64,000 nucleotides of DNA from contig JAGWTA010000006.1 in the NCBI GenBank assembly GCA_028869185.1, positions 1 through 64,000 of the forward strand, written 5' to 3'. Shown here piece by piece: positions 19,003-22,984 of the stretch; within the stretch, counting starts at the first letter, position 1, and every line of letters starts with the position of its first letter. Both the position numbers and the translations under genes were made by a program. Source of the stretch: Hyphomicrobiales bacterium. GTDB lineage: Bacteria; Pseudomonadota; Alphaproteobacteria; Rhizobiales; Beijerinckiaceae. The notes under the pieces are model-generated. The model searched no databases. It saw only the letters and a program-made list of their open reading frames with translations, and was not told where the DNA came from.

Positions 19003-19236
19003 TCAGGACCGGCGCAACGCGGGATTGCGCTCGAACAGGCGTTTCAGCTTCGCCTCGGGGCTCGAATAGGCTTCCTGCAAGTCGACGTTCCAGTAACGCA
19101 ATTCCTCAAGCGGAATCGGCTGGCCGGTGACGGCGCAGCGCACGAAGGCGCCGGGCTTGCGCACGCGGAAATCGCCATCGAGATATTCGAGTTGGGCTTC
19201 CGTCGCCGGATTGCCTGCGCGTTCGAAACGGTTCAT
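19003..19236 (-). CDS. DUF2093 domain-containing protein
   Basis: A 77-residue protein recognised as DUF2093 by ATEAQLEYLDGDFRVRKPG, FVRCAVTGQPIPLEELRYWNVD and the ending AYSSPEAKLKR. The function is unknown; the fold is probably small and zinc-free with one conserved Cys. In many Hyphomicrobiales this gene directly follows xseA; here a kinase and a phosphoesterase gene stand between them. It lies 31 bases after the kinase gene, in the same direction, so it is probably in the same transcript. Confidence 0.85.
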   Translation of the reverse strand: MNRFERAGNPATEAQLEYLDGDFRVRKPGAFVRCAVTGQPIPLEELRYWNVDLQEAYSSPEAKLKRLFERNPALRRS

Positions 19237-19267: not shown

Positions 19268-20662
19268 TCAACTCTCGCGCGCCTGCGGCAGGCGCACAAT
19301 CGTGACGGCGCAGGGCGCGGTTGCGGCGACACGGGCGGAAACGGAGCCGAGATAGCGCCGCAGGGACGAGGCGCCGCGCGCGCCCAGCACAATCTGGTCG
19401 GCCCGGCTTTCGCGCGCAAAGGCGACGATGGCGTCGGCGACGTTGGGTTCTTCGAGAACATGAATGGTGACGTTGCGCGCGCCTTTCTGCAAAGGCCTCG
19501 CCCAGGCGCGCAGCTCCACCATCATCTGCACATGCCTGTTGCGCCCCTCCGCGTCGGCGGCGCCGGCCTCGAACACGCGCCCGGTTTTCATTACGGCAAC
19601 GCAGGCCAGCCGCGCCGCCGGCGCCGTTTCAAGAATGCGCCCCGTCATGGCGCGCACGGCATCGGCAAGGTTCTCCCCGCCATCGCCGAGATCGACAGCG
19701 GCGACGACGATCGGCGCGTCGGGCGGCTTTGGCGCGGCGCTGATTTCGCCCGCCGCCCTCGCCCGCAGATAAGCGACGCGCCGCCGAAGGATCGCCGCGC
19801 TGCTGGCCGGTCGCACGCGTTCGGCGCGTTCAGTCAGCACGATCTGATTGGGGTTTTGCAAATCGAACCGCAGTTGCGCCGCGCTTTGATAGCGGGCGGC
19901 CGGATCGATCTCGAGACAACGCAGCACGACCTCTTGAAACCACGGCGGCAATTGTGGCTGCAATGCGCGCAGAGGCGCAGGCGCGCGCCAAAAACGCTCG
20001 CGCAAACCGCTCAGCGTCGTCGGTTGTCCGAAGGGCCGGCGCGCGACCGCCAAATGATAGAGCAGAACGCCGAGCGCGAAAATATCCGAGCGCGGATCGG
20101 AACGGTCGCGGCGCAATTGTTCAGGCGAAATATATGGGCCCGTGCCAACGGGCACACGCAATTCCTCGGCCAGCAAATCCGGCATGCGCAGATGGCGCGA
20201 CAGGCCGAAATCCACGAGCGCGGCCTCACCCGTCTCGCGCAACATGACGTTGGACGGCTTGACGTCGAGATGCAACACATTCTGCGCGTGCAGATCGGCG
20301 AGCGCGCCGGCTGTTTTCGCGCCGATGTCGCGCAGCGTCTCCACCGGCAGCGGCGCCTGATCGATCAACGAAAGCAGCGAGCGCCCGCCAATGTCCTCCA
20401 TGACGAGGTAGGGCTGGCGCGCGAGATCGCCGACAGCGTAACATCGCGGCGCGCTGCGCCCGACGAGACGGGGCAGGATCATCTCCTCCATCTCGAAGCC
20501 GACGATGGCGGTCGGATCAGACAGCAGCGTCGGGATTTTCATCAGAACAGGCGCAGCGATATCGGGATGCGTGACGCGCCAGAGCGTCGCCATCCCGCCG
20601 GTGTGCAATTGCGGGCCCAGCGTGAAGCCGTCGACGATGGCGCCGGGGCGAAGGATCATCAT
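19268..20662 (-). CDS. Serine/threonine protein kinase fused to a universal stress protein domain
   Basis: A 464-residue soluble protein with two domains. Residues about 12-265 form a eukaryotic-type kinase: a Gly-rich loop (LHTGGMATLW), lysine K42 in VLMKIP, the catalytic loop HLDVKPSN with D133 (a non-RD form, Leu in place of Arg), the Mg2+ motif DFG with D151, and GTGPYISPEQ. Residues about 316-460 form a UspA domain with the ATP-binding GARGASSLRRYLGS and the ending APCAVTIVR. No membrane segment or PASTA repeat is seen, so any signal is likely sensed in the cytoplasm, possibly by nucleotide binding to the UspA part. The ATG at 20662 follows the stop of the phosphoesterase gene by one base. 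Confidence 0.88.
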   Translation of the reverse strand: MMILRPGAIVDGFTLGPQLHTGGMATLWRVTHPDIAAPVLMKIPTLLSDPTAIVGFEMEEMILPRLVGRSAPRCYAVGDLARQPYLVMEDIGGRSLLSLIDQAPLPVETLRDIGAKTAGALADLHAQNVLHLDVKPSNVMLRETGEAALVDFGLSRHLRMPDLLAEELRVPVGTGPYISPEQLRRDRSDPRSDIFALGVLLYHLAVARRPFGQPTTLSGLRERFWRAPAPLRALQPQLPPWFQEVVLRCLEIDPAARYQSAAQLRFDLQNPNQIVLTERAERVRPASSAAILRRRVAYLRARAAGEISAAPKPPDAPIVVAAVDLGDGGENLADAVRAMTGRILETAPAARLACVAVMKTGRVFEAGAADAEGRNRHVQMMVELRAWARPLQKGARNVTIHVLEEPNVADAIVAFARESRADQIVLGARGASSLRRYLGSVSARVAATAPCAVTIVRLPQARES

Positions 20663-20663
20663 G

Positions 20664-21398
20664 TCATCGTCCCAGAAACAGACGTTCTGAAAGTATGTCG
20701 GGCAATCTGGCGGCGACGATTTTGCCGGCGGCGGCGGCGACATCGTAAGGCGCGCGGCGGAAGGACAATTCGCGACGGCTCATGTCGTAGAGACAGAAGG
20801 CCGCCGCCGGATTGCGATCGCGCGGCTGACCGACAGAGCCGGCGACGGCGAGCCATTGGCGGCCACGCGACAGGGGCGTCGGCATTTGTCCATCCGGCGC
20901 AAAGAACATTGCGCTGCGCTGCGGCGCGCGATGATAGAGCTGCGGGCGATGCGTATGGCCGCAAAAGGTCACATGCGCGTCGCTTGCGCGCAGCGAGCGT
21001 TCGGCGCTTTCCGCATCGGCGACGTAACGCCAGTCTTCCGGCCGCGAGGCGTCCGAATGCACGAACAGCAGGTCGCCTTCGCGCGCAGTGCGCGGCAAGG
21101 CGCGCAGGAAGTCGATCTGTGCGCGATCGAGCCGTGACCGCGTCCATTCGATGGCGGCGCGCGCAACCGCGTTCATGCCGCCGGCGCTGCCGAAAACGGC
21201 TTCGTCGTGATTGCCGAGAATAACGCTGGCGTTTTCGCAGCGCGCGACCTGATCGACGACATAGGAGGGGTCGGCGCCATAGCCGACGAGATCGCCGAGA
21301 AAAACGAAACGTTCTGCGCCCGCCCGTCGCGCCTGCGCCATGCAGGCGTCGAACGCCTCGCGGTTGGCGTGGATGTCGGACAGAAGCGCGATCAGCAC
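20664..21398 (-). CDS. Metallophosphoesterase family protein
   Basis: A 244-residue calcineurin-like phosphoesterase. Motifs in order are SDIHANREAF (DxH), FLGDLVGYG (GD), LGNHDEAV (GNHD) and FCGHTHRPQ (GHTH), so all metal-binding blocks are present. It resembles the small YfcE/DNA-ligase-neighbour phosphodiesterases more than PPP protein phosphatases. The substrate is unknown. It is one base upstream of the kinase-UspA gene and two bases downstream of xseA, so it is clearly in the same operon; an opposing action on a target of the kinase is possible but only inferred. Confidence 0.88.
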   Translation of the reverse strand: MLIALLSDIHANREAFDACMAQARRAGAERFVFLGDLVGYGADPSYVVDQVARCENASVILGNHDEAVFGSAGGMNAVARAAIEWTRSRLDRAQIDFLRALPRTAREGDLLFVHSDASRPEDWRYVADAESAERSLRASDAHVTFCGHTHRPQLYHRAPQRSAMFFAPDGQMPTPLSRGRQWLAVAGSVGQPRDRNPAAAFCLYDMSRRELSFRRAPYDVAAAAGKIVAARLPDILSERLFLGR

Positions 21399-21400
21399 GG

Positions 21401-22984
21401 CTAGAACAAACTCCCCTGCCCGCCGCCGGGCGTTTTTGGCCGTGGCGCGGGTTTCGCGCGCGGCGCCGTCTCGCCGTCGATGGTCGCGCCTGTTTCGCCA
21501 TCGGCAAATTCAAGCCTGACATGCTGGCGCGCCTGCAGGGCGGCGGCGGCGCGCACGGGATGGCCGTCCTCGTCGCGCACCAGCGCGAAACCGCGCGCCA
21601 GCACATTGGTGTAACCAAGCGAGGCGAGCATGCGCGCGCGCTGTTGCAACGCCTCGCGGCGATGGGCCACGAGACGGGCGAGCGCGGGCGCAAGGCGCGC
21701 CTGCATCGAGCCGACGACCGCACGGCGGTTTGCGATCTGCAGGCGGCCCTTGTCCATGCGATTCGCGAAGGCGATCGCCAGACGTCGGTCGAGCGCCGTG
21801 AGCGCGTCGCGCCGGCCCGCCATATTGGCCTGCGTATCGCGCGCCAATGTCCTGCGCGCCGTTTGCAGCCGCGCCTGCGCGCGCGCAAGCTCAGCCTGCG
21901 GCGAATGGCGCGCGAGCAGCGCAGCGGCGCCGTGCAGATTTCTGCGGCGCTCTCCCAAAAGCGAGCGCATGTCCTTGCGCAAGTCGGAGCCCGCGCCGTC
22001 GACGAACTGCCGCCGTGGCCCCAGGAGCGCGTCAGGCGTAGGCAGGACGCGCGCCAGCGCGCGCAAATCGCTCCAGCGCCGCTCCATCCAGCGCAAATGC
22101 TGGTGATGATGACGACGCGACAATTCGCCATGCTGGTTCAGAAGATCGAAACGCACCGGCACGACCTTTTCCGCAGCGCCCGTGGGCGTTGGCGCGCGCA
22201 GATCGGCCACATGGTCGAGCAGCGTCGTATCCGTCTCGTGGCCGATGGCGGAAATGAGCGGGATCATGCTTTGCGCGGCGGCGCGCACGACGATCTCCTC
22301 ATTGAAGGCCCACAAATCCTCAAGCGAGCCGCCGCCACGCGCAACAATCAGCACGTCGGGTCGCGGCAGCGGGCCTCCATGGCCAATGGCATTGAAACCG
22401 GCGATGGCGGCGGCCACTTCCTGCGCAGCGGTCTCGCCTTGCACGCGCACCGGCCAGACAACAACATGACGGGGAAACCGATCGGAAATGCGATGCAGAA
22501 TGTCGCGAATGACGGCGCCGGTCGGCGACGTGACGACGCCGATGACGGCAGGCAGAAACGGCGTGAGCTGCTTTCGCGCAGCATCGAACAGACCTTCGGC
22601 CGCAAGCTTGCGGCGGCGCTCCTCGAGCAGCGCCATCAAGGCGCCGACGCCCGCCGGCTCAACCGATTCGATCACAATCTGATACGAGGACTTGCCCGGA
22701 AAGGTGGTGATCTTGCCGGTTGCAATCACCTCCAGCCCTTCCTCAAGGCGCGCGCGCAGCCGGTTGAACGCGCCTTTCCAGATGACCGCATCGATGCGCG
22801 CGTTCTGATCCTTCAGGCTGAAATAGCAATGGCCGGAGGAATGAGGCCCGCGGTAATTGGAAATTTCGCCGCGCACGCGCACGAGGCCGAAGCGATCCTC
22901 TACCGTGCGCTTCAGCGCTGCAGAGAGTTCGCTGACGGTGACTTCAGGATTGTTGGGGTGAGCGGGCTCGGCCATGGGACCCAT
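21401..22984 (-). CDS. xseA: Exodeoxyribonuclease VII large subunit
   Basis: XseA (527 aa) is the catalytic subunit of exonuclease VII, which degrades single-stranded DNA. An N-terminal OB-fold (VRVRGEISNYRGPHSSGHCYF) is followed by the nuclease core (GVVTSPTGAVIRDI, VARGGGSLEDLWAFN, SAIGHETDTTLLDHVADLRAPTPTGAAE) and a long coiled-coil C-terminus that scaffolds XseB. Two starts fit: ATG at 22984 and ATG at 22975. The gene begins 4 bases after the LprI/DUF3298-like gene. XseB is not encoded in the window. Confidence 0.95.
   Translation of the reverse strand: MGPMAEPAHPNNPEVTVSELSAALKRTVEDRFGLVRVRGEISNYRGPHSSGHCYFSLKDQNARIDAVIWKGAFNRLRARLEEGLEVIATGKITTFPGKSSYQIVIESVEPAGVGALMALLEERRRKLAAEGLFDAARKQLTPFLPAVIGVVTSPTGAVIRDILHRISDRFPRHVVVWPVRVQGETAAQEVAAAIAGFNAIGHGGPLPRPDVLIVARGGGSLEDLWAFNEEIVVRAAAQSMIPLISAIGHETDTTLLDHVADLRAPTPTGAAEKVVPVRFDLLNQHGELSRRHHHQHLRWMERRWSDLRALARVLPTPDALLGPRRQFVDGAGSDLRKDMRSLLGERRRNLHGAAALLARHSPQAELARAQARLQTARRTLARDTQANMAGRRDALTALDRRLAIAFANRMDKGRLQIANRRAVVGSMQARLAPALARLVAHRREALQQRARMLASLGYTNVLARGFALVRDEDGHPVRAAAALQARQHVRLEFADGETGATIDGETAPRAKPAPRPKTPGGGQGSLF

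Follow-up and report, generated by a model that had tools for sequence, protein, structure and literature searches.

A conserved two-gene module of a Usp-tailed Ser/Thr kinase and a calcineurin-like phosphoesterase with one-sided loss of the kinase

The window analysed here, a stretch of 64,000 nt from a Hyphomicrobiales contig (JAGWTA010000006.1), carries on its minus strand, in this order, xseA, a metallophosphoesterase gene (MPE), a gene for a Ser/Thr kinase with a C-terminal Usp domain (kinase-Usp) and a DUF2093 gene (Table 1). Two bases separate the xseA stop codon from the start codon of MPE, and the junction between the MPE stop and the kinase start reads TGA C ATG, which leaves a gap of a single base. 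A first-pass annotation of the same DNA had described a kinase-Usp fusion and a complete phosphoesterase one base apart, and the translation, the Pfam matches and the junction all agree with that anatomy. The gene order of the window also bears out its placement of the pair between xseA and DUF2093. It had further assumed that in many Hyphomicrobiales xseA is followed directly by DUF2093, an arrangement found at just 3 of 20 examined family loci that lack the pair.

Table 1 Features of the locus, with the upstream box of related loci
Feature	Position	Strand	Remarks
MPE, 244-aa calcineurin-like (metal-dependent) phosphoesterase	20664-21398	minus	GTG start; first gene of the pair; Pfam Metallophos_2 E 6.5e-18
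Kinase-Usp, 464 aa, Ser/Thr kinase + C-terminal Usp	19268-20662	minus	Pfam Pkinase E 5.5e-29, Usp E 2.5e-14
PknB-like kinase domain, residues ~7-272	19847-20644	minus	
Non-RD HLD of the kinase catalytic loop	20264-20272	minus	
Kinase-to-Usp linker, residues 282-314	19721-19819	minus	pLDDT <50 in the model
Usp domain, residues ~315-458	19289-19720	minus	Pfam Usp; nearest PDB sequence 1wjg
Usp nucleotide-motif site, GARG-ASSLRRYL-GS	19343-19384	minus	8 not 9 residues ahead of the last glycine
xseA (exonuclease VII large subunit)	21401-22975	minus	start codon assumed at MAEPAHPNNPEV
DUF2093 gene	19003-19236	minus	downstream neighbour outside the module
FNR/FixK-type box TTGAC/T-N5-TCAA	~58 bp before MPE start		L042-L046, L048, L049, L074

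The phosphoesterase is complete, as first annotated: in addition to the Metallophos_2 match it has all eight metal ligands (D8, H10, D36, N63, H64, H114, H148 and H150), which are kept in paired and unpaired MPEs with the sole exception of one N63D, in an MPE-only protein. Its structure model is confident (pLDDT 92). The nearest solved fold is 3rqz (Z 34), the substrate of which is not known, and the next are two archaeal proteins (Z 28). Among the near folds SapH/Spr1479 alone has a named activity, its title being that of an asymmetric Ap4A hydrolase and phosphodiesterase; it is similar over the whole protein (Z 26.7, 223 residues, 25% identity), whereas PP5, PP1, PP2A and calcineurin reach a Z of about 15. 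The PPP signatures GDxVDRG, GNHE and HGG are absent, with GDLVGYG, GNHD and VHSD in their place. Because the fold lies nearest to 3rqz and SapH, and not to PP1 or PP2A, nucleotide hydrolysis by MPE remains a live rival to the removal of a protein mark. MPE shares fold, size and metal ligands with 3rqz and SapH/Spr1479 but, unlike them, is coupled to a kinase; its likeness to SapH is one of fold.

The kinase has the complete set of Hanks-type residues (Lys, Glu, HxD Asp, Asn and DFG Asp), here K42, E57/E59, D133, N138 and D151; K42, E57, E59, D133 and D151 are conserved at 93% or more across 51 family members. With an HLD catalytic loop in the window and HxD throughout the family (x being L, F, H or M), the label ‘non-RD’ given at first pass is right. 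The family also has a common activation-loop signature, (M/L)PDLLAEE. In both sequence and fold the kinase is closest to PknB, and the model of the whole protein, of moderate confidence (pLDDT 72), resembles PknA and PknB. Inspection by eye revealed no membrane-spanning hydrophobic stretch, and the protein is therefore probably cytoplasmic, as had been proposed. A defence role, like that of the anti-phage kinase PD-T4-6, was considered: the kinase domain is hit by many PADLOC kinase models (best E 6.5e-53, residues 8-273), hits of a generic kind that any Hanks kinase could give, and the neighbourhood survey recognised no defence genes adjoining the pair.

The Usp tail matches PF00582 at 54.5 bits against a cut-off of 24. 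In place of the canonical nucleotide motif G-2x-G-9x-G(S/T) it carries G-2x-G-8x-GS, and alignment to 1wjg, a probable ATP-binding Usp, places the one-residue gap in the phosphate-binding loop. Relatives frequently have Ala or Gln for the second glycine, and the motif is gone from several betaproteobacterial members, which retain MPE. With one residue missing from the motif here and the motif as such gone from those members, ATP binding by this Usp domain, as judged from its sequence, is doubtful. The first-pass description of an ATP-binding UspA domain is thus not upheld, and its suggestion that the tail lets the kinase sense ATP or another nucleotide is weakened, while the Usp assignment itself stands.

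We examined approximately 805 distinct genomes overall (G000-G804). In a family sample of 80 genomes, a close kinase, with E of at most 1e-44, was found in 24, every one of which had MPE as well. A phylum sample of 398 genomes gave the kinase in 23, a close MPE in 23 and both in 22, and in an order sample of 387 genomes the kinase was present in 52 and MPE in 54. The first-pass annotation had suggested a genome search for the pair, and it is indeed conserved elsewhere, with both genes in 50 genomes of the order, although most genomes of the order have neither. The 387 genomes contain 53 kinase genes, of which 50 directly follow MPE on the same strand, and the coupling of the two genes has a Fisher p of ~1e-55, a value that ignores the kinship of the genomes. 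The order, MPE then kinase, is invariable, and the gaps are mostly 0-6 bp. Homologous pairs occur in Alphaproteobacteria, Betaproteobacteria (Noviherbaspirillum and others) and Holophagaceae. Plasmids of Pseudoroseomonas, Rhodobacter and Bosea carry them too, with the PGAP product names ‘metallophosphoesterase family protein’ and ‘bifunctional serine/threonine-protein kinase/universal stress protein’. MPE and kinase-Usp are a real conserved module, and a functional link between them is supported. Two caveats apply. In G071 the block is split between contigs C7 (L076) and C13 (L072), one with xseA-MPE and the other with kinase-DUF2093; the detached kinase sits on a very long tree branch, and its Usp motif is degenerate. 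G766 has, besides a pair, a second full-length kinase-Usp that is solitary, with no adjacent MPE (L107, G766:C2) and with a Usp-like fragment close by.

Loss is one-sided. Twelve genomes have MPE without the kinase and one more, G074, has a broken kinase (L078, G074:C44:1-8000) with its activation loop deleted and a frameshift, beside an intact MPE. By parsimony, the kinase was lost or broken with MPE kept in approximately seven independent events (G064; G038; a clade of six; G272; G650 with G723; G804; and G074; in the MPE-only G804 the contig ends 1.4 kb on). MPE-only loci of the xseA clade read xseA-MPE-DUF2093, and no convincing kinase remnants were found after MPE in MPE-only loci. Against these losses, no intact kinase was found in an MPE-less genome among the ~805, an asymmetry that is new. 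Two genomes appeared to be kinase-only: in G575, MPE is cut by the contig end, and in G337 one deletion fuses MPE at about codon 10 to the kinase at about codon 30, harming both, as it removes most of MPE together with the glycine loop of the kinase. Read most simply, the kinase depends on MPE more than MPE depends on the kinase. Since no intact kinase was found in a genome lacking MPE, MPE probably restrains or reverses the kinase, and the first-pass idea of a phosphoesterase that reverses the kinase mark fits this pattern. The rate of MPE relative to xseA was 1.52 after kinase loss versus 1.03 (p 0.09, with related branches), which at most suggests slightly faster MPE evolution once the kinase is gone. 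A further MPE of G074 stands alone (L073).

Each of the eight Bradyrhizobium-like members examined, the MPE-only one included, has a CRP/FNR-type box 58-59 bp ahead of its MPE start. Across 45 upstream regions, 12 have matches at 9 of 10 box positions against 1.0 expected, and 8 of these 12 come from the Bradyrhizobium-like genus. The box was rejected as a family-wide feature, being found only in that genus and in a small number of other members. Micro-oxic induction or FixK2 control has been described for other Usp genes of B. diazoefficiens (PMC6515984, PMC9104804); the kinase-Usp locus could be matched to none of these. In the window, xseA and MPE are too close for MPE to have a promoter of its own between them, and in this genome the pair is probably read from the xseA transcript.

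Outside the clade in which it adjoins xseA, the pair has neighbours that vary between genomes and are unrelated, and no widely recurring third gene was found beside it in the loci surveyed. An MFS transporter and acs were considered as a third module gene and rejected, as they adjoin the pair in few loci; one MFS transporter family is near MPE in L035, L036, L061 and L078, and acs is present as well at L036 and L061 (Holophagaceae and a Rhodobacter plasmid). In both gene trees Holophagaceae and the Noviherbaspirillum group nest among alphaproteobacterial branches, apart from other betaproteobacterial members, and this shared nesting implies that MPE and kinase-Usp travel together. On these trees the pair is a self-contained unit that moves between genomes as one piece, and we count joint transfer as demonstrated at the level of gene phylogeny.

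The tight coupling to xseA had led the first-pass annotation to suggest a link to DNA damage or stress and to propose scoring co-occurrence with xseA. A module in which the pair acts with exonuclease VII would agree with the two-base gap here and with the touching or near-touching genes of several relatives. However, the pair stands beside xseA in only one clade of one family, and even inside that clade the two genes may overlap or lie as much as 720 bp apart, and one genome encodes xseA on the other strand. The 16 xseA-adjoining MPEs, whether or not a kinase accompanies them, fall into a single clade of the MPE tree (support 100/98), so the unit most simply settled beside xseA once; the kinase tree is compatible with a single settling without resolving the point. 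Because the linkage is limited to a single clade and goes back to one settling of the unit, the DNA-damage reading is unsupported, and the neighbourhood survey and the tree lead us to reject it as very improbable. The xseA gene next to the pair is incidental, an accident of the landing place, and not part of the module.

We propose instead that the pair is a two-gene signalling unit consisting of a writer, the Usp-tailed kinase, and an eraser or restrainer, MPE. The module is solid and the mechanism less so, and we regard the chances of this proposal as evenly balanced. The first gene would provide a metal-dependent phosphoesterase and the second a soluble Hanks-type Ser/Thr kinase that, as the writer, would phosphorylate itself and cellular substrates. 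The Usp tail may tune or place the kinase during stress, which for the Bradyrhizobium-like genus would probably be low oxygen, and the co-translated MPE would take off the mark or otherwise restrain a kinase that would be harmful if unopposed. In its favour we count as established the anatomy, the conserved coupling and order, the intact active sites, the joint transfer and the one-sided loss; the CRP/FNR-type box of the Bradyrhizobium-like members is a further point for it. Against it stand a fold nearer to 3rqz and SapH than to protein phosphatases, the missing PPP signatures, the no more than slight acceleration of MPE evolution after kinase loss, the second G766 kinase with no adjacent MPE and the G071 genes on different contigs. 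The retention of MPE without the kinase in 12 genomes also counts against the proposal, as it implies that MPE has another job or is not dedicated.

The same retention, with an intact MPE active site, is what would be seen if MPE were a broad-range phosphatase with its own job, beside which the kinase sits out of need, and not a dedicated signal part. Yet most genomes of the order have neither gene, which would be odd for a housekeeping function, and MPE and the kinase move together; we consider this reading quite unlikely. The fold, in turn, raises the possibility of a nucleotide switch, in which MPE would hydrolyse an Ap4A-like dinucleoside polyphosphate or another nucleotide bound by the Usp tail and thus set kinase activity. 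Nucleotide binding is common among Usp domains, and the Ap4A hydrolase title of SapH/Spr1479 points the same way. The short Usp motif, its frequently replaced second glycine and its loss from betaproteobacterial members that keep MPE argue against such a switch, as does a nearest fold, 3rqz, that is without known substrate, and we entertain it tentatively, as the less probable account. To return to the writer and eraser, the unit may also be mobile and addiction-like, with a Usp-tailed kinase that is harmful unless its protein phosphorylation is reversed by a co-translated SapH-type MPE, whose fold has a known member that acts on nucleotides; we consider this version unlikely.

Kinases with a UspA domain (STYK-USPA) were described in 2005 by Krupa and Srinivasan and reported in Mesorhizobium, Bradyrhizobium and Nitrosomonas (PMC1262709). 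By their description, the present kinase resembles those fusions in combining a Ser/Thr kinase with a UspA domain, and it differs in having a coupled phosphoesterase, of which the parts of that account considered here make no mention. The PGAP name for a bifunctional kinase and universal stress protein is applied to members of the present kinase family. The view that the system is poorly described consequently holds in part: the fusion has been known since 2005 and has a PGAP name, but a literature search found no paper on the pair or on that product name, and no function for Usp-tailed kinases, although they have been in genome lists since 2005. According to a review, dedicated partners of bacterial Hanks kinases are usually PPM phosphatases, often in the same operon (PMC6213207), which makes MPE the unusual part. 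As in the PrkC-PrpC and PknB-PstP operons, a PknB-like Hanks kinase shares a unit with a phosphatase-like gene; there, however, the partner is a PPM/PP2C phosphatase, and the PrkC/PknB type of kinase is membrane-bound with PASTA domains, whereas here the partner is a Metallophos_2 protein and the kinase is soluble with a Usp tail. With a near-obligate phosphoesterase partner, the Usp-tailed kinase is no longer an orphan but one half of a testable two-gene system, and MPE points to a possible protein phosphatase in a fold that is seldom regarded as such.

At locus L024 (G030:C75), the reading frame changes at the linker between the kinase and Usp parts, which may reflect a frameshift, a natural split or an assembly error. 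An internal TAG is reported in the kinases of G584 and G609, yet tblastn aligns the kinase full-length in both, and the TAG is therefore probably a natural stop.
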